Shown here one piece after another: positions 15,369 through 25,369 of a stretch of 64,000 nucleotides of DNA (position 1 is its first letter; every line of letters begins with the position of its first letter). The translations under genes were made by a program, and so were the position numbers. Below the pieces are notes generated by a model. The model saw only the letters and a list, made by a program, of their open reading frames with translations, ran no database searches and was not told the DNA's origin. Origin of the DNA: Leucobacter sp. UT-8R-CII-1-4 (GTDB taxonomy: Bacteria; Actinomycetota; Actinomycetes; Actinomycetales; Microbacteriaceae); NCBI RefSeq assembly GCF_030010235.1, contig NZ_JASCRS010000003.1, positions 1 through 64,000 on the forward strand, given 5' to 3'.

Positions 15369-16046
15369 TTGCGAGTTTTAATCGTTGAAGACGAGGCATA
15401 TCTGGCTGAGGCCGTACAAACGGTACTTCGCCGAGAATCGATCGCGGCAGACATTGCGCTCGACGGACTTACCGCGCACGAAACGCTGAGTCACACCGAG
15501 TACGACATCGTGATTCTTGATCGCGACCTCCCAGGCATGCACGGCGACGAGCTCTGCACCTGGATTGTGCGCGAGCTGCCCCAAACACGAGTGCTGATGC
15601 TGACCGCCTCAGGCGCACTGCAACAAAAAGTAGATGGTTTCGCGCTTGGCGCCGACGACTACCTAGCAAAGCCATTCGACTTCCCAGAGCTTCTGGCACG
15701 TTTGCACGCGCTCAAGCGCCGCTCAGCACCGGCACTACCGCCCGTGCTTGAAAGCTGCGATATCACCCTCGACCCGTTTCGCCATGAAGTTTTTCGCAAT
15801 GGGCGCTATGTGAAACTCAGCCGCAAAGAATTCGCAGTGCTGCGCGTATTGATGGAAGCAAACGGCGGCGTAATCAGTGCCGAGCAGTTGCTTGAGCGAG
15901 CCTGGGACGAAAATGCCGACCCCTTCAGCAACGCGATTCGGGTGACCGTCTCAACCCTTCGCAAACGCCTCGGTGAGCCACGCGTCATTCACACTGTGCC
16001 CGGATCTGGCTACCGAATTGGCCCGGAGGAAACGCAGCATGGCTAA
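15369..16046 (+). CDS. OmpR-family response regulator
   Basis: Response regulator, 225 residues. Receiver: RVLIVEDEAYL, phospho-acceptor in DIVILDRDLPG, MLTAS and the lysine in DYLAKPFDF. Winged helix: VKLSRKEFAVLRVLMEANGGVISAEQLLERAWDE to VSTLRKRLGEPRVIHTVPGSGYRI. The start is a TTG at 15369 with GGAGG six bases ahead. The kinase start overlaps its end by eight bases. Divergent from the export operon it likely regulates. Confidence 0.9.
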   Translation: MRVLIVEDEAYLAEAVQTVLRRESIAADIALDGLTAHETLSHTEYDIVILDRDLPGMHGDELCTWIVRELPQTRVLMLTASGALQQKVDGFALGADDYLAKPFDFPELLARLHALKRRSAPALPPVLESCDITLDPFRHEVFRNGRYVKLSRKEFAVLRVLMEANGGVISAEQLLERAWDENADPFSNAIRVTVSTLRKRLGEPRVIHTVPGSGYRIGPEETQHG

Positions 16047-17253
16047 GGCACTCGGCGGCCGCCCCTTCCGCCTCACCATTCGGGCGCGACTCACCCTAAG
16101 TTTTGCGGCACTGTTTGCGCTGGGTGGCGGCCTGCTGGTCGTTGGCCTCAACCTCTTTATGCGTTACGGTCCTGTATGGTCGCTCTCAACCACCCCCGCA
16201 CAGGTTGTCGCACAGACTGGGCAAGTTATCGAGCTGCCGGTTGATTCAACCAGCCCGCAGCCGCTCAATGAAATCTCACTCTTGGCTCTACCAGCCGCCG
16301 AGATACGAGACACAACCGACGTACTCGTGACCCTGCTTTGGTCTTCGGTAATCGCGCTCATCTGCATCGTGATCATTGGCTCATTCGCAGCCTGGTTTCT
16401 ATCTGGTCGGCTGCTCTCGCCACTGCACACCATCAACGAGGCAGCGCGTTCGGCCACTCCAGAACATCTCGAACAGCGTGTTGGCCTGGTCGGTCCCCGA
16501 GACGAGCTCACCGATCTCTCGGACACCCTCGATGAAATGCTTGAGCGGATAGAGCGAGCCTTCGTAGCTCAACGACTCTTCGCAGCAAATGCCTCACACG
16601 AGTTGCGCACTCCACTCGCCACCGAGAAAGCAATGCTCGACATGCTGCTCGATGGGCCAGAACCAAGTGGCGACGAGTATCGCGAGGTTGCCGAACGGGT
16701 TCGCGAAGTAAATGCCCGCAATATTGCCATGGTGAATGCCCTGCTTGAGCTCTCGCGCGCGCAGGCACTCGACCCATCAATCCCCGCAACAATTGAGACC
16801 GTCGAGTCAGCAGAACTTTTGCGCGAACCGCTGGCAAGGTGTGCGAGTGCGGCAACGGCCCGCGGTCTCAGCGTGCAGCTTTCGCACACACCGCACACGC
16901 TGCAAGCGCAACCACAACTACTCGATCAGCTACTTGAGAATCTGCTGCAGAACGCCGTTCGACACGGCCTCCCAGACGGTGAAATTCAGATCAACTGGGT
17001 GGCCGAAGGCGGCTACTCGATCATGCGCATCAGCAATAGTGCCGAGCAGCTCGGCGATGAATTACGTGCGCGCCTTCTAGAACCGTTTGTGCGCGCCGAA
17101 GCCCGCGTGCGGGGCTCTGGCGGCAGCGGCCTAGGTCTCGCCATTTCGACAGCAATCGCCGAGGCTCACGGCGGCACACTGCAACTCGGCGAGGGAGAAA
17201 ACGGCCAGTTCGTGGTGACGGTGAAACTGCCCAGAACGGCCACTTCGATTTAG
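16039..17253 (+). CDS. Sensor histidine kinase (OmpR-system type)
   Basis: Membrane sensor of 404 residues. Two helices (about residues 18-38 and 105-130) flank a short outer loop; then HAMP (SGRLLSPLHTINEAAR), HisKA with FAANASHELRTPLATE and its phospho-histidine, and HATPase with LLENLLQNAVRHG, and GSGGSGLGLAI. The ATG at 16039 is chosen since GGAGGA lies before it and the in-frame GTG at 15973 would add residues without homology. Overlaps the response regulator. Confidence 0.9.
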   Translation: MAKALGGRPFRLTIRARLTLSFAALFALGGGLLVVGLNLFMRYGPVWSLSTTPAQVVAQTGQVIELPVDSTSPQPLNEISLLALPAAEIRDTTDVLVTLLWSSVIALICIVIIGSFAAWFLSGRLLSPLHTINEAARSATPEHLEQRVGLVGPRDELTDLSDTLDEMLERIERAFVAQRLFAANASHELRTPLATEKAMLDMLLDGPEPSGDEYREVAERVREVNARNIAMVNALLELSRAQALDPSIPATIETVESAELLREPLARCASAATARGLSVQLSHTPHTLQAQPQLLDQLLENLLQNAVRHGLPDGEIQINWVAEGGYSIMRISNSAEQLGDELRARLLEPFVRAEARVRGSGGSGLGLAISTAIAEAHGGTLQLGEGENGQFVVTVKLPRTATSI

Positions 17254-17462: not shown

Positions 17463-17485
17463 AAGCCTTTTCTAAGGAGCTAGTT

Positions 17486-17569
17486 GTGCTTGACCTCGTC
17501 TACATCTTGGGCGTGATTGTGCTGTTCACAGCCATCGGCCTGCTCGGCAAGGCGGTGGAGAAACTGTGA
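17486..17569 (+). CDS. 27-residue membrane peptide preceding KdpF
   Basis: A GTG-started ORF of 27 codons with a strong TAAGGAGC site six to twelve bases ahead. It begins [14 protein letters not shown] and ends GKAVEKL: one membrane helix with a basic tail. Its TGA stop overlaps the GTG start of kdpF (GTGA at 17566-17569), so the two are translationally coupled. My recollection is that comparable short peptides ending in KxVEKL precede kdpF in other actinobacteria, usually unannotated. It lacks the KPExF ending of KdpF. Possible role: a second small subunit of the Kdp complex, inferred from position. Confidence 0.65.
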
Positions 17570-17655
17570 TCGTCTTCGACATTGCTGCCGGGCTGCTCGC
17601 AGCCGCCGCCATTGTGTATCTTGTGATCGCCCTCGTGAAACCGGAGCGATTCTAA
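17566..17655 (+). CDS. kdpF: Potassium-transporting ATPase small subunit KdpF
   Basis: A 29-residue single-helix peptide that stabilises the KdpABC complex. The C-terminus [12 protein letters not shown] matches the KdpF consensus of a helix followed by a PExF tail. GTG start inside the preceding ORF's stop; the TAA stop shares its last base with the kdpA ATG (TAATG at 17653-17657). First canonical gene of the kdp operon. Confidence 0.9.
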
Positions 17656-19328
17656 TGACCTGGCTGTATGCGATTCTCTCGCTGGCAACTATCGCTGTTC
17701 TGCTCGGGGTACTTTATCGACCATTCGGCGACTACATGGCGTGGGTATACACCGCGAAAAAAGACCTCAAAATTGAACGCGGGATCTACCGGCTTATTGG
17801 TGTTGATGCCGCGTCAGAGCAGAGCTGGCAAGCATATCTGCGCAGTGTGCTCTCGTTTTCTGCCGTTGGCTTGCTGCTCGTTTACGGTCTGCAACGCCTG
17901 CAACAGTGGCTGCCGTACTCGCTTGGCCTCACTGCACCGTCAGAGCACCTCTCGTTTAATACGGCTGCTTCGTTTGTGGGCAACACCAACTGGCAGTCGT
18001 ATGCGCCAGAAAGCACACTCGGCTACACCGTGCAATTTGCGGGCCTTGCCGTGCAGAACTTTGTCTCAGCAGCGGTCGGAATTGCTGTCGCAATCGCGCT
18101 CGTACGTGGGTTCGCCTATCGACGCTCCGGCACCATCGGAAACTTCTGGGTTGACCTCACCCGAGGCACTCTGCGCATCTTGCTACCCATCGCGGTCATT
18201 GGAGCAATTGTGCTCATGGTCGGCGGGGTGATCCAAAACTTCAACGGCTTCACAACTGTCACCACGATCACCGGCGCAACACAGACCATTCCCGGCGGTC
18301 CCACCGCATCACAAGAGGTGATCAAGCTGCTTGGCACCAATGGTGGTGGCTTCTTCAACGCGAACTCCTCGCACCCATTCGAGAATCCAAGTGCTCTCAC
18401 CAATCTGTTCCAGGTGATCTTGATGCTCATGATTCCGTTCTCGCTGCCGCGCACCTTTGGCCGGATGGTCGGCGACAACCGTCAGGGTTACGCCGTGCTC
18501 TCAGTGATGGCCACGCTCTATGTTGCGGCGTTCGCGGCAATGACGTCGCTCGAATCCCTCGGCCTCGGCACGGCGCCCGAGCTTGCTGGCGGCGCACTCG
18601 AAGGTAAAGAAATGCGGCTCGGGGTGATCGGTTCAACTCTCTTCAGCACTACGAGCACCGGCACTTCAACGGGCGCCGTCTCGGCAATGCATGACTCGTA
18701 CACCGCGCTCGGCGGCATGATCCCCATGCTCAACATGATGCTCGGTGAGGTTTCCCCCGGCGGTGTCGGCTCGGGCCTCTACGCCATGCTGGTGCTCGCG
18801 ATTATTGCGGTGTTTATTGCTGGCCTACTGATCGGGCGCACCCCGGAATACCTCGGCAAAAAGATTGGACCGCGAGAAATCAAGCTGGCTGCGCTCTACA
18901 TTCTCGTGATGCCTACCCTCGTGCTCAGCGGCACAGCGCTCAGCTTCGCGCTGCCCGGCGTGCGCGAAGAAATCGCCTCGACTTCAATTCTGAACCCGGG
19001 TATGCACGGCATGTCAGAAGTGCTGTACGCCTTCACCTCGGCAGCAAACAATAACGGTTCAGCTTTTGCCGGGCTTACCGCGAACACCCCTTGGCTCAAC
19101 ACGGCTCTCGGTGTGGTTATTTTGCTCGGGCGGTTTGTACCGATCGTGTTTGTCTTGGCGCTCGCTGGATCACTCGCAGCGCAGGATCGGGTGCCCGCAA
19201 CGGTTGGCACGTTGCCGACCCACCGCCCACTGTTTATTGGGCTGCTCACAACGGTCACCGTGTTGGTTACCGCTCTCACATTTTTCCCTGTTCTGGCGCT
19301 GGGTCCCCTGGCAGAAGGGCTGCTGTAA
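17655..19328 (+). CDS. kdpA: Potassium-transporting ATPase, K+-channel-like subunit A
   Basis: Membrane subunit that selects and conducts K+ in the high-affinity KdpFABC pump, 557 residues, the normal family length. Selectivity-filter-like segments of the repeated membrane-pore-membrane units are visible as [50 protein letters not shown] and [13 protein letters not shown]. The ATG at 17655 is the correct start; the open frame extends upstream to 17517 over kdpF. kdpB follows after three bases. Confidence 0.97.
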
Positions 19329-19331
19329 ACC

Positions 19332-21521
19332 ATGTCAACAATCACTCTTTCCGAAGCTGATGCCGCGGGGCAAAGCACCGCTCACCCCGCTGAGGGTGCC
19401 GGAGCGAACGGGCACGTTTCAAAGGCCAACGGCTTCTCATGGCAGCAATTACGTTCGGCGCTTCCCGGCGCTTTTCGTAAGCTCAACCCGCGCGAGCAGT
19501 GGCGAAACCCCGTGATGTTCATCGTCTGGGTCGGTGCAGTACTGACCACGGTGCTCGCAATAGCCGAACCATTTCTTGGCGGTCCTGCCGACTCTGGCGG
19601 TACCGCCGTACCGGGCTCATTCACGGCAGCAATCGCTATTTGGCTTTGGCTCACCGTGCTTTTTGCGAACCTGGCCGAATCGGTTGCAGAAGGGCGCGGA
19701 AAAGCGCAGGCAGAGACCCTGCGAAAGACCCGCACCAGCACCGTCGCGCACCGCGTGGAGAATTATGATGCTGCGGGCGATCCAGCAGCGCAGCACACGT
19801 CCACCACCGAGCTTGCGTCTTCTGAGCTCGCCCTTGGCGACACTGTCGTGGTCGCAGCCGGCGAACTCATTCCTGGTGACGGTGACATCGTATGGGGTAT
19901 CGCCTCGGTTGATGAGTCAGCGATCACGGGCGAATCTGCGCCGGTAGTGCGCGAATCGGGCGGCGACCGCTCGGCTGTCACTGGCGGCACCCGGGTGCTC
20001 TCCGACCGAATTGTGGTGCGGATCACTTCAAAACCGGGAGAAACATTTGTTGATCGAATGATCTCATTAGTTGAGGGAGCTGCCAGGCAAAAAACACCCA
20101 ACGAGGTAGCTCTCAACATCTTGCTCGCCTCGCTCTCGATCATCTTTGTTGTGGTTGCGCTGACGCTCAACCCCATCGCTTCGTTCAGCGCAGCACCGGT
20201 GAGCGTGACAGTGCTTACGGCCCTGCTGGTGTGTCTGATTCCGACCACGATTGGCGCGCTACTGAGCGCGATCGGCATTGCCGGCATGGATCGCTTGGTG
20301 CAACGAAATGTGCTTGCGATGTCAGGCAGGGCGGTTGAGGCTGCGGGCGATGTCACCACACTGCTGCTCGATAAAACGGGCACGATCACCTATGGCAATC
20401 GTCGCGCGAGTGAATTTGTGCGGATGGGCGGTGTGCCCGAACAAAAGCTTGTGCGGGCGGCAGCGCTCTCATCGCTTACCGACCCAACCCCAGAGGGCGT
20501 TTCGATCGTTGAACTCGCAGAGAAGGAAGGTGTGGAATTTACCCGGGAAACCGCTGGCGAAATTGTGCCGTTCACGGCGCAGACCCGCATGTCTGGTCTT
20601 GATCTGCCCGATGGATCGCAGATTCGTAAGGGTGCAGGTTCTGCGGTGCTTGCCTGGCTCGAAAGCGACAACCTCGAGCTGAGCAATGATGTGACTGCTG
20701 AACTCAACGGCTACGTCTCTCGAATCTCACAATCTGGTGGCACCCCGCTCGTTGTAGCCAGCAAGGACGCGAGCAGAAACGGTCGTCTGCTCGGTGTTGT
20801 GCACCTAAAAGACGTTGTTAAAACAGGCCTGCCCGAGAAGTTCGCCGAGATGCGATCAATGGGCATTCGCACGGTCATGATCACGGGTGACAACCCGCTC
20901 ACAGCCGCCGCTATTGCCAGAGAGGCTGGCGTAGACGACTTTCTCGCCGAGGCAACCCCCGAAGATAAGCTCGCCTACATTCGCAAAGAACAAGAGGGCG
21001 GCAATCTCGTAGCGATGACCGGCGACGGCACCAACGATGCGCCAGCGCTCGCGCAGGCCGACGTGGGAGTTGCCATGAACTCCGGCACCTCAGCCGCAAA
21101 AGAGGCCGGCAACATGGTCGACCTCGACTCAGACCCGTCAAAGTTGATCGACATTGTTCGCATCGGCAAACAGTTGTTGATCACGCGCGGCGCGCTCACC
21201 ACCTTTTCAATTGCTAATGACCTCGCAAAATACTTCGCGATCATTCCGGCAATGTTCATGGGCGTGTTTCCGCAACTCGCGGCGCTCAACATTATGGGAC
21301 TGCACTCGCCGGCCTCCGCAGTGCTCTCAGCAATCATCTTTAACGCGATTGTGATCGTGTTCCTGATCCCGCTCTCGCTGCGTGGCGTGAAGTATCGGCC
21401 GGGCAATGCCTCGAGCCTGCTCGGACGAAACCTTGCCGTCTACGGCCTCGGTGGCGTCATCACCCCGTTTATTGGCATCTGGCTGCTTGACCTTCTCGTT
21501 CGCCTGATCCCCGGTTTTTAA
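19332..21521 (+). CDS. kdpB: Potassium-transporting P-type ATPase subunit B
   Basis: Catalytic P-type ATPase subunit, 729 residues. The phosphorylated aspartate is D347 in [12 protein letters not shown]; the actuator loop is AITGESAPV; the hinge is [21 protein letters not shown]; the nucleotide domain has FTAQTRMSG and KGAGSAV. An N-terminal extension of about 45 residues rich in Ala/Gly precedes the usual start [18 protein letters not shown]. Couples ATP hydrolysis to K+ uptake through KdpA. Confidence 0.97.
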
Positions 21522-21548: not shown

Positions 21549-22163
21549 ATGAACGCATCAAGCCGCGGTGCTGGGCGTACCACCTGGGTCGCGATTCGCG
21601 CCATGGCACTTTTCACAGTGCTGCTCGGGGTCGGCTACACCTTTTTGATCACCGGCATCGGCCAAGCTTTCTTGCCCGCACAAGCCAACGGCTCGCTTGT
21701 TAGTGGCGCCGACGGCCAAATAGTTGGCTCTTCGCTCATCGGTCAATCATTCGTAGATCAGTCGGGTGATCCGCTGCCCGAATACTTCCAATCACGACCA
21801 TCGGCAGCCGGTGGTGGTTATGACGGTGCCGCCTCGTCAGGTTCAAATCTTGGCCCTGAGAACCCCGAACTGATTTCGGCGATTACCGAACGCAAGGCGC
21901 AAATCGCTGCCTTTAACGGTGTGAACGAAGCCGTGGTACCCGCCGACGCGGTCACCGCTTCTTCTTCGGGCCTCGACCCACACATCAGCGAGGAGTACGC
22001 TGCGATTCAGATACAACGTGTCGCCAACGAGCGCGGACTCGCAAGCGATACGGTGCGCGAGCTTGTGCAGGCGCACACCAGCAACCGCGCACTCGGATAT
22101 CTGGGAGAAACAACCGTGAATGTTCAAGAGTTGAACATTGCACTAGACAAGCTGAAAGGCTAA
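21549..22163 (+). CDS. kdpC: Potassium-transporting ATPase subunit C
   Basis: Small subunit of the Kdp pump, 204 residues: one N-terminal helix (AMALFTVLLGVGYTFLITGIGQ) and an outer domain with GSSLIGQSF, YFQSRPSAAGGGYDGAASSGSN and LDPHISEEYAAIQIQRVANERG, all KdpC hallmarks. It stabilises the KdpAB assembly and its ATP binding. Followed after three bases by kdpD. Confidence 0.96.
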   Translation: MNASSRGAGRTTWVAIRAMALFTVLLGVGYTFLITGIGQAFLPAQANGSLVSGADGQIVGSSLIGQSFVDQSGDPLPEYFQSRPSAAGGGYDGAASSGSNLGPENPELISAITERKAQIAAFNGVNEAVVPADAVTASSSGLDPHISEEYAAIQIQRVANERGLASDTVRELVQAHTSNRALGYLGETTVNVQELNIALDKLKG

Positions 22164-22166
22164 ATC

Positions 22167-24671
22167 ATGTCGAAGCAGGGGCGGCTCAGCGTGCTGCTCG
22201 GTGCCGCCCCTGGTGTCGGCAAGACATACGCCATGCTTGAGGAGGGCCGGCGCCTACTCGCGGCTGGCCAAGACGTTGTCATCGGCATTGTCGAGACGCA
22301 CGACCGCGCAGCCACAGCCGCGATGACCGAGGGCCTGCCGGCGATCCCCCGAACTCTAATTGCGCACCGCGGAGTGGAACTCGCCGAAATGGATCTCGCC
22401 GCTGTGCTGGCGCGAAAACCCGCCATCGCACTGGTTGATGAACTCGCACACACCAATGCGCCGGGTTCTCGCAACCAAAAACGCTGGCAAGACGTTGCCG
22501 AGCTGCTTGACGCTGGCATCAGCGTGATTTCAACCCTCAACATTCAACATATTGAATCGCTCAACGATGTGGTCGAGCAGATTACCGGGGTGCCGCAGCG
22601 CGAAACGGTGCCCGATAGTTTTCTGCGCAGCGCCGACCAGATTGAAGTCGTCGACCTTGCGCCGCAGTCACTGCGTGATCGACTGAGCAGCGGCGTGGTC
22701 TACCCCGCCGAGCGGATCGATGCAGCCCTTTCGAACTATTTCAGGCTCGGCAATCTCACGGCGCTGCGCGAGCTTGCACTAATTTGGCTCGCAGACGAGG
22801 TCGACCAAGCGCTTAAGGGGTACCGCGAAGCGCACAGCATCGACAGCATTTGGGAGGCGCGCGAACGAGTCGTCGTTGCGCTGACCGGTGGACCGGAGGG
22901 TGAGACGCTGCTTCGCCGGGGGGCGAGGATCGCCGCGCGTTCGGCAGGTGGCGAGCTCATTGCAGTGCATGTCACCAGCCAAGACGGCTTGCGCTCTGCC
23001 GACCCGGCCGCGCTGGCCGAACAGCGCTCACTCGTCGAAAAACTCAATGGCACTTATCACCAGGTTATTGGCGAAGACATTCCGGGCGCGCTTGTCGCCT
23101 TTGCTCGTTCGGTAAACGCGAGTCAGCTGATTCTTGGCGCGAGTAGGCGCGGTCGACTCGCCGCCCTCTTTGCCGGGCCCGGAATCGGTGCGACCGTGGT
23201 GCGCGAATCAGGCGATATCGACGTACATATGGTGAATCACGCAGAGGCTGGGCGCGCACTCGCGCTGCCGCCGCTGACTGGTTCGCTCACTTTGAAACGA
23301 AGAATCCTTGGCTTGGTCGTTGCGCTACTTGGCGGGCCTGCCTTGACCGGGGTGCTGATGCTGTTGCGCAGCCCTGATTCGATCACCACCGATGTGCTCA
23401 GTTACCAATTGCTCGTAGTGGTGGTGGCGCTGATTGGCGGGTTCTGGCCCGCAGTGTTCGCCGCGGTGCTCTCTGGCTTCACGCTCGATTTCTTTTTTAT
23501 CGAGCCCCTGTTTACGGTGCACATTCATAACCCTCATCACCTGCTTTCGCTGGGCCTCTACGTGCTGATTGCGAGCCTCGTAAGTTTTGTGGTGGATCGC
23601 GCGGCCCACTTCACTCGAGCAGCACGGCGCTCAGCTGCCGAGGCTGAATTGATTCAAACCATCGCCGGCAGTGTGCTGCGCGGCGACAATGCTATTCAGG
23701 CGTTGATTGATCGAACCCGGGAAGCATTTCAGTTGCCCGGTGTGCGATTGCTCTCCGGCGGCCAGCTGGTGGCAGCGTCTGGCGAGCCTGTGCCTGACAA
23801 CCATCACACCACTATTCGTATTGACGAAGAAACGGTACTTGAGTTGCATGGCCCAGATCTTGCGGCCTCAGATCAGCGCCTTCTCGCTGTCGTGACCGCC
23901 CAACTTTCGGCAGCGATTGAGCATCAGCACCTTGCGCTCACGGCAGAACAGATCGAACCAATTGCCGCTTCTGACCGGGTGCGCGGCGCGCTGCTATCTG
24001 CCCTCAGCCATGATTTACGCAGACCTGTCGCTGCGGCGAGCGCAGCGATTGGAGGGTTGCGGGCTGCTGGCGCCAAACTTTCGGCAGAAGACACTCAAGA
24101 GTTGCTCGTCACCGCCGAGGAAAGCCTTGAAGCGCTTGCGACGCTGCTGACACATCTGCTCGATGTCAGTCGGCTGCAAGCGGGAGTGCTCACCATTGCC
24201 GCCCTGCCAACCGACCCTGCCGAGACCATTGCGCCCGCTCTTGATGAGTTGCAGCTTGGCCCTGGTGAGGTCACTCTCTCGCTCGCGCACGGCGACGCGC
24301 TTGCTGAGGCTGATCCGGTGTTGCTGCAGCGGGTGCTGGTGAATCTGCTGACCAATGCTCATCGTTTTAGCCCAGCGGATCGCCCGATCATCATCGGTAC
24401 GAGCACGTTTGCCGACAACCTTGAGATCAGGGTTGTTGACCACGGCCCCGGTATTCCGCTCGAAAAACGCGATGATGTCTTTTTGCCTTTCCAGCGGCTC
24501 GGAGACACCGACAATTCGACAGGTCTTGGCCTTGGCCTCGCGCTTTCGCGGGGTTTTGTTGAGGCTATGCACGGCACGCTTGTTCCCGAGGACACTCCAG
24601 GTGGAGGCCTCACAATGGTGATATCTCTACCGCTAGTTCGGCACCCCTCTGCGCAGAAAGATGACTCATGA
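22167..24671 (+). CDS. kdpD: Osmosensitive K+ channel sensor kinase
   Basis: Sensor kinase/phosphatase of 834 residues with full family layout: N-terminal KdpD domain with Walker A GAAPGVGKTYAML and IALVDELAHTNAPGSR; a universal-stress-protein-like domain (about 240-370), which binds c-di-AMP in some Firmicutes; four helices of the DUF4118 membrane block (about 380-480); a GAF-like linker; then HisKA with LLSALSHDLRRPV and HATPase with VNLLTNAHRFSP and STGLGLGLALSRGF. The stop overlaps kdpE as ATGA. Confidence 0.95.
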   Translation: MSKQGRLSVLLGAAPGVGKTYAMLEEGRRLLAAGQDVVIGIVETHDRAATAAMTEGLPAIPRTLIAHRGVELAEMDLAAVLARKPAIALVDELAHTNAPGSRNQKRWQDVAELLDAGISVISTLNIQHIESLNDVVEQITGVPQRETVPDSFLRSADQIEVVDLAPQSLRDRLSSGVVYPAERIDAALSNYFRLGNLTALRELALIWLADEVDQALKGYREAHSIDSIWEARERVVVALTGGPEGETLLRRGARIAARSAGGELIAVHVTSQDGLRSADPAALAEQRSLVEKLNGTYHQVIGEDIPGALVAFARSVNASQLILGASRRGRLAALFAGPGIGATVVRESGDIDVHMVNHAEAGRALALPPLTGSLTLKRRILGLVVALLGGPALTGVLMLLRSPDSITTDVLSYQLLVVVVALIGGFWPAVFAAVLSGFTLDFFFIEPLFTVHIHNPHHLLSLGLYVLIASLVSFVVDRAAHFTRAARRSAAEAELIQTIAGSVLRGDNAIQALIDRTREAFQLPGVRLLSGGQLVAASGEPVPDNHHTTIRIDEETVLELHGPDLAASDQRLLAVVTAQLSAAIEHQHLALTAEQIEPIAASDRVRGALLSALSHDLRRPVAAASAAIGGLRAAGAKLSAEDTQELLVTAEESLEALATLLTHLLDVSRLQAGVLTIAALPTDPAETIAPALDELQLGPGEVTLSLAHGDALAEADPVLLQRVLVNLLTNAHRFSPADRPIIIGTSTFADNLEIRVVDHGPGIPLEKRDDVFLPFQRLGDTDNSTGLGLGLALSRGFVEAMHGTLVPEDTPGGGLTMVISLPLVRHPSAQKDDS

Positions 24672-25369
24672 AAATCTTGATCGCCGACGATGATCCGCAG
24701 ATTCTGCGTGCCCTGCGAATCACGCTCAGCGCGAAGGGTTACCAGGTGGTCACCGCGAATGATGGTGCGCAAGCGATCAGCGCTGCCATTGAGCAGCACC
24801 CCGATATCTTTTTGCTTGACCTGGGCATGCCGAATCTGAACGGCCTGGAAGTGATCGAAGCTATTCGGGGCTGGTCGAGTTCGCCGATTTTGGTGGTTTC
24901 TGGTCGCGCGGGGGCAGCTGACAAGGTTGAAGCTCTCGATGCCGGTGCGGATGACTACATTACGAAACCCTTCGCGATCGAAGAACTTCTCGCCCGGATT
25001 CGCGCGCTTTCTCGCCGCGTGCCACAGGATGCAAGCAGCCCGGTGGTGCGGCTCGGTGATGTCACGATTGATTTGGCTGCACACAGTGTCACCCGGTCGA
25101 ATAGCGAAGGGTCAAAGCAGCTGCGGCTCACCCCAACCGAGTGGCAATTCATCGAAATTCTGATCCGCAATGCGGGCAAGTTGGTCACGAGACAAACCGT
25201 GCTCACCACGATTTGGGGCACTGAGCACGCCGAGGATACGGGCTACCTTCGCCTCTATGTGTCTCAGTTGCGCAGAAAGCTTGAGGACGACCCGGCAAAT
25301 CCACGCTACATTTTGACCGAACCCGGCATGGGTTACCGGTTGGCGGGGGTCACCACCGATTCTGTCTAG
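24668..25369 (+). CDS. kdpE: KDP operon response regulator
   Basis: OmpR-type regulator of 233 residues activated by KdpD under K+ limitation. Receiver: KILIADDDPQILRAL, phospho-aspartate in IFLLDLGMPNLNG, VVSGR, and lysine in DYITKPFAIEELL. Winged helix: LRLTPTEWQFIEILIRNAGKLVTR to YVSQLRRKLEDDPANPRYILTEPGMGYRL. Being the last gene of the operon, autoregulation with the pump genes is expected. Confidence 0.95.
   Translation: MKILIADDDPQILRALRITLSAKGYQVVTANDGAQAISAAIEQHPDIFLLDLGMPNLNGLEVIEAIRGWSSSPILVVSGRAGAADKVEALDAGADDYITKPFAIEELLARIRALSRRVPQDASSPVVRLGDVTIDLAAHSVTRSNSEGSKQLRLTPTEWQFIEILIRNAGKLVTRQTVLTTIWGTEHAEDTGYLRLYVSQLRRKLEDDPANPRYILTEPGMGYRLAGVTTDSV

Follow-up and report, generated by a model that had tools for sequence, protein, structure and literature searches.

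A 27-codon open reading frame (ORF) at positions 17486 to 17569 on the forward strand of the window (the whole 64,000-nucleotide stretch of Leucobacter DNA analyzed here) is close to certain, on the evidence of its sequence, its homologs, and its dN/dS ratio, to be a real protein-coding gene. We provisionally call it kdpX, and its product, a single-span membrane peptide, KdpX or X. As judged by comparison with profile libraries, X is a conserved protein family without an entry in the copies of Pfam and NCBIfam that we searched. We infer that KdpX belongs to the Kdp pump, where it would accompany KdpF as a second small subunit with a single membrane span (probability, approximately 0.6). A sequence-only reading of the same DNA had suggested a further small Kdp subunit or regulator of a kind that annotation usually misses, and the data described below fit that suggestion.

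The ORF starts with a GTG codon at 17486, which is followed by 26 codons and a TGA stop (17567 to 17569). A Shine-Dalgarno (SD) sequence, AAGGAG (17474 to 17479, forward strand), lies 6 nt before the start. Because the GTG of kdpF occupies positions 17566 to 17568, the stop of kdpX and the start of kdpF overlap as GTGA (17566 to 17569, forward strand). The sequence-only reading had described a membrane ORF of 27 residues upstream of kdpF, with a strong ribosome-binding site of its own and a stop overlapping the kdpF GTG; all three features were confirmed, and the peptide contains a hydrophobic helix.

The genes that follow are likewise on the forward strand. kdpF (17566 to 17655) encodes 29 amino acids and matches Pfam PF09604 with 32 bits (cutoff, 21.2); its product scores below the NCBIfam cutoffs. 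It overlaps kdpA as TAATG, with the kdpA start at 17655 (17655 to 19328; PF03814, E value of 1.4e-225). The product of the gene at 19332 to 21521, with the P-type ATPase domains E1-E2_ATPase and Hydrolase of Pfam, is consistent with KdpB, so named here because the gene lies between kdpA and kdpC (21549 to 22163; PF02669, E value of 2.4e-67). The sensor kinase gene kdpD (22167 to 24671; PF02702, E value of 2e-92) is followed by a response regulator gene (24668 to 25369; Response_reg and Trans_reg_C), the position of which after kdpD is consistent with KdpE. Directly upstream of the kdp cluster (15369 to 17253) lies another pair of response regulator and histidine kinase genes, in addition to kdpD and kdpE. 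The best plasmid match to the KdpA of the window was from Arthrobacter (63%). Like the E. coli KdpFABC heterotetramer, the cluster of the window has F, A, and C, with a P-type ATPase, a sensor, and a regulator in the KdpB, KdpD, and KdpE positions, but it carries one extra small membrane gene, which the E. coli and Klebsiella plasmid loci examined are without.

KdpA was present in 107 of the 199 genomes of the window's family. We examined 108 kdpA places in the family, the window's own among them; two places at contig edges (G176 and G130) and, for the split gene of G009, its second piece are outside this count. An X homolog scoring at least 10 bits precedes kdpA at 102 of the 108 places (101 of 107 plus the window). 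The six family loci without X are L210, L216, and L252 to L255. Genome G003 accounts for both L210 and L253, which are its two copies, whereas L255 is one of two copies in G126, and the other one (L238) has X. No clear X was found elsewhere in the genomes of four family members lacking it at kdp (G003, G087, G189, and G019).

The codons of the ORF are constrained for the amino acids that they encode. Among the 102 family members, the in-frame dN/dS (Nei-Gojobori method; 3,201 pairs, 65 to 98.5% identical) was 0.464, compared with 1.001 and 1.483 when the frame was shifted; the control, kdpF, had a value of 0.381. Without the last five codons, the corresponding values were 0.492 in frame versus 0.875 and 1.614 in the shifted frames. 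The sequence-only reading had named codon-level amino acid conservation as a check on the ORF, and kdpX came through it. The 81 nt preceding the ORF were near random (entropy of 1.84 bits versus 0.88, 0.65, and 1.13), with 10 pairs alike enough to score. An SD tetramer (GGAG, GAGG, or AGGA) was found before 88 of the 101 family homologs and, with all groups summed, in 213 of 268 members; 9.7 and approximately 26, respectively, were expected from shuffles that preserve composition only. A short ORF in a GC-rich genome could in principle be a spurious open frame in the operon leader. We consider this hardly credible in view of the codon-level constraint, the SD sequences, the conservation across phyla, and the linkage to kdp. 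Among the family rows listed, those with X score 15 to 45 bits, which is partly circular because the profile used for the tally was built from first-round hits, versus at most 4.0 bits for the best opposite-strand control among all loci.

The peptides have a median length of 27 amino acids, and their hydropathy peak over 19 residues is at least 1.6 in 270 of 271 cases. Lysine and arginine are richer on the C-terminal side of the helix in 259 of the 271 and on the N-terminal side in none. Since the side richer in these residues faces inside (the positive-inside rule), X is predicted to have its N terminus out and its C terminus in. A single membrane helix with an inside C terminus is, as a prediction, a trait shared with KdpF. 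All 102 family rows have an aspartate at residue 2 or 3, as do 154 of the 169 other rows. Prominent features outside the family are phenylalanine in a mid-helix column (137 of 169), cysteine close to the C terminus (126 of 169), and a final D/E-R/K-L. The conserved C-terminal end reads GVEKL in the family, where most peptides finish in VEKL or VERL, and is ACDRL-like elsewhere, with a CDRL-like finish. Some members (L011, L028, L029, L072, and L225) carry a polar tail of approximately 18 to 37 residues after the conserved end.

The 4-nt overlap between kdpX and kdpF is itself conserved, as the sequence-only reading had proposed to check. It was found at 95 of the 96 scored family loci (92 of 101 with kdpF fixed at 29 codons). 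In the rest of the window's phylum, it was present at 21 of 26 loci, and in the class of a Massilia genome, all 9 loci scored had it. It was found at 12 of 28 loci in the phylum of a Thermomicrobiales metagenome-assembled genome (MAG) and at 3 of 76 in a mostly alphaproteobacterial set, in which a gap of 0 to 30 nt separates the genes at 67 of 76 loci. An SD tetramer for kdpF is present within the X tail in only 35 of the 102 family members, so that kdpF probably needs ribosomes coming from X. Coupled reinitiation at kdpF in the window's family is likely on these sequence grounds.

Coupling of this kind raises the alternative that the ORF is a mere leader, the translation of which couples or tunes kdpF expression while the peptide itself is inert. 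The stop-start overlap and the few strong kdpF SD sequences in the window's family are in its favor, as are leaders described before kdpF in two other systems. A paper on Mycobacterium smegmatis maps the transcript start by 5'-RACE to a site 120 nt ahead of the kdpF GTG and reads the interval as a long 5' untranslated region (UTR) (PMC5401905), and one on Caulobacter gives a kdp leader of approximately 100 nt before kdpF, predicted to be highly structured (PMC8552747). In these papers, the region occupies the same place before kdpF as X but is read as untranslated (PMC5401905, PMC8552747). At four loci that we took for Mycobacterium-like (L069, L073, L077, and L081), the start of X lies 80 nt ahead of that of kdpF; X in such loci would fit inside a 120-nt leader like that of M. 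smegmatis.

Several observations argue against an inert peptide. Amino acid constraint extends along the whole of X. The aspartate and the acid-basic-hydrophobic end are also kept in the mostly alphaproteobacterial rows, in which X and kdpF mostly do not overlap. Conservation of the C terminus merely as an SD sequence for kdpF is an insufficient explanation, as Glu25 is kept in 86 of the 102 family rows, only 34 of which have the SD tetramer there; the other 52 keep it without the tetramer. Because the end is kept where the genes do not overlap and Glu25 is kept where there is no SD tetramer, the constraint appears to be largely on the protein. X also lies directly before kdpA at loci without a detected KdpF. 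The RNA of this stretch of the window folds unremarkably (z score of -0.95), and Rfam gave no family at its gathering score, with a below-threshold match at 17778 to 17820 only. The possibility of a structured RNA leader or riboswitch was rejected, as neither Rfam nor folding nor a sigma-70/terminator scan (0 sites) supported it. We therefore consider a pure leader improbable, and less likely than the main rival to the subunit reading, a regulator or transient assembly factor.

The distribution of X was surveyed by searching approximately 520 nt upstream of kdpA in 347 loci. Four of these loci occur twice in the set (L141/L373, L162/L292, L169/L323, and L177/L337), all with both X and F. Besides the family, X scored at least 10 bits at 25 of 45 loci from other families of the window's phylum and at 7 of 12 plasmid loci, which were hand-picked from 60 listed of 464 records. 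It did so at 78 of 80 loci on named GTDB contigs, a figure biased because these loci were the best 80 matches to an Azospirillum-led KdpA query. In the phylum of the Thermomicrobiales MAG, which we take to be Chloroflexota, 23 of the 30 best-scoring loci (from 37 genomes with KdpA) had X. The count was 7 of 13 in the class of the Massilia genome (presumably Gammaproteobacteria), in which a 14th locus was without a kdpA start. It was 7 of the 29 best-scoring loci in the phylum of a Spartobacteria MAG, by our assumption Verrucomicrobiota. In the phylum of a Melainabacteria MAG, which we assume to be Cyanobacteriota, 42 genomes had KdpA, and X was present at 7 of the 30 best-scoring loci. Sixteen further loci score 5 to 10 bits; by eye, most are X-like, and at least one (L100) is not. 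The sampling covers groups other than Bacteroidota and chromosomal Bacillota.

Record titles of X-positive loci name Alpha-, Beta-, Gamma-, and Deltaproteobacteria, Acidobacteria, Gemmatimonadetes, Melainabacteria, Thermomicrobiales, Myxococcus, and Spartobacteria, and X is present upstream of the kdp genes on pMP1 of Deinococcus radiodurans. This breadth across many phyla goes beyond what the sequence-only reading foresaw. X was absent from the one E. coli locus searched (best score, 1.5 bits) and from the Klebsiella, Enterococcus, and Halobacterium plasmid loci examined. Neither KdpF nor X was found before kdpA at 42 of the 347 loci (e.g., L293 to L298, L301 to L304, L340 to L344, L346, and L347); the Melainabacteria phylum contributes many of these, and the Spartobacteria phylum contributes a block of nearly identical ones. 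At some loci of the Thermomicrobiales phylum (L373 and L376), X ends approximately 400 to 430 nt before kdpA, leaving space for other sequence ahead of kdpF or kdpA. On pRL11 of Rhizobium johnstonii (L094:3199-3354), an annotated hypothetical protein of 51 amino acids lies between kdpA and kdpB.

Searches without positional constraint also led to kdp. With profile A1 in 296 genomes of the window's phylum, each of the best 13 matches (E values of ≤0.00203, window included) lies a short way upstream of a kdpA gene in the same orientation; the 14th (E value of 0.00266) lies away from kdpA. Some match at an E value of ≤1 occurred in 133 genomes, in most of them weak matches only. Profile A3, which contains no row from a Thermomicrobiales record, gave 18 matches at E values of ≤0.01 when run against the Thermomicrobiales phylum (121 genomes). 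Every one of them lies on the kdpA strand, 131 to 527 nt before the kdpA match, and none is in a genome without kdpA. Of the 37 kdpA-bearing genomes, 18 had a match at that level and 19 did not. Over ten genomes of other phyla, A1 gave one match at an E value of ≤0.01, at the kdp locus of G499. The low yields of A1 (1 of 10) and A3 (18 of 37) reflect the difficulty of detecting 27 residues genome-wide. A short-peptide tblastn search of plasmids gave no match, although plasmid members of X exist. One X-like match away from kdp (E value of 0.0065; G017) lies inside a long frame. As would be expected of a component of the kdp operon, X was found adjoining kdpF or kdpA in the same orientation, with no clear occurrence away from them.

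X tends to occur with KdpF. At a threshold of at least 5 bits, X was found at 267 of 300 loci with KdpF and at 5 of 47 without it (263 of 296 with KdpF when the double loci were counted once). The 267 include the 16 KdpF-bearing loci at which X scores 5 to 10 bits, which are excluded from the 251 at which it scores at least 10 bits. In the phylum and class surveys alone, the counts were 79 of 102 and 4 of 45. Because 33 of the 300 kdpF-bearing loci and the E. coli locus have no X, the Kdp pump can work without it. The history of this association was followed on a KdpA tree (FastTree) using 108 of 168 rows, the other 60 having been dropped because their KdpA stretch was short or held a stop. 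X requires 10 changes on this tree and F 5. Of five independent pairs, 3 to 4 agreed for X and F and none disagreed (P = 0.25, not significant), and gain and loss of X are indistinguishable on the tree because it was not rooted by evidence.

X without detected KdpF was seen at five loci (L249, L262, L272, L289, and L290). Since X closely precedes kdpA at all of these but L262, it appears to be more than a lead-in to kdpF. L249, L272, L289, and L290 have the appearance of KdpF loss with X kept. No fusion of X with F was found, as the best X and best F matches were never in one frame at the 347 loci, and no X-KdpA fusion was found in 115 frames leading into kdpA, a test applied to loci other than L183 to L277.

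X and KdpF are alike in several respects: both have approximately 27 to 29 residues, one helix, and a predicted N-out/C-in topology, and the genes for both stand first in the kdp cluster. X, however, is encoded one gene further upstream and is present in addition to KdpF. Their common size, predicted topology, and tandem position, together with ends that are acid-basic-hydrophobic in both (DRL versus ERF), might suggest that KdpX is a diverged tandem paralog of KdpF doing the same job twice. The hallmark of KdpF is a P-E-(R/K)-F-like C-terminal end, which is also visible in the F rows of this study and is absent from X. The X of the window matched no KdpF profile (PF09604, TIGR02115, or NF011342), and neither did any of ten diverse X peptides. 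When 189 representatives of X were compared with 201 of F by hhalign, the probability was 0.5% in global mode and the local-mode alignment comprised a single column, i.e., there was no detectable profile similarity. A paralog with the same function is accordingly very improbable, whereas a very old common origin of X and KdpF is possible, as 27 residues are too few to exclude it.

The searches of known families gave no other name for X. The X of the window had no NCBIfam or Pfam family above the cutoff, with DUF2973 below the cutoff in Pfam, and the ten diverse peptides had no match above the cutoff in either library. The best score for BcsF (PF11120 and TIGR03493) was 18.4 bits (cutoffs, 23 and 56), in two of the ten. 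Profile A1 had no match among PDB sequences at E values of ≤10. Some members are present in RefSeq under other descriptions. WP_191287747.1 of Mycetohabitans (L095:1299-1403), with 34 amino acids, is an X homolog just upstream of kdpF; its name, "potassium ABC transporter ATPase," does not fit. Two "hypothetical proteins," WP_275451547.1 of Azospirillum (42 amino acids) and WP_157359306.1 of an Arthrobacter plasmid (65 amino acids), contain X just upstream of kdpF behind an in-frame N-terminal extension. Among the matches listed in open-access full text, to which the literature search was directed rather than to subscription papers, there was no description of X. A Streptomyces review lists the Kdp components as F, A, B, and C (PMC10117811). 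For the E. coli pump, KdpF is described as a lipid-like single spanner (PMC6255902) and is suggested to be a structural chaperone with KdpC (PMC12629597).

On our preferred reading, KdpX would be translated ahead of kdpF and would insert first, as one helix with its N terminus out and its C terminus in, while its translation would carry ribosomes on to kdpF. The peptide may then pack against KdpF, KdpA, or KdpB, at or near the KdpA-KdpB interface together with KdpF, and there act to stabilize assembly or to tune pump activity. In E. coli, the pump runs without it. Single-helix peptides of approximately 30 amino acids can, in general, act on kinases or transporters, and KdpX might regulate or assist Kdp without a stable subunit role, for example, as a modulator of KdpD or a transient assembly factor. 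An early assembly role would suit a peptide encoded before all of the pump subunits, and regulatory membrane peptides able to interact with sensor kinases are mentioned in a paper on mycobacterial KdpF (PMC3618439). The tight genetic linkage of X is, however, to kdpF, and we regard a regulator or assembly factor as rather unlikely, while placing it ahead of the other alternatives.

Kdp, the emergency potassium pump of bacteria, is a textbook system, to which KdpX would add a second small subunit. Given its occurrence across bacterial phyla, we tentatively suggest, at somewhat less than even odds, that the ancestral pump was KdpXFABC and that the E. coli complex was derived by loss of KdpX. To our knowledge, the structures and mechanism of Kdp rest on the E. 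coli complex. If many other Kdp pumps carry KdpX, models of assembly, lipid contacts, and regulation must include it, and purification or heterologous expression based on FABC alone may have omitted a part. KdpX offers a ready test case: gene, start codon, and coupling site are all at hand, and the inducing condition (low K+) is known.
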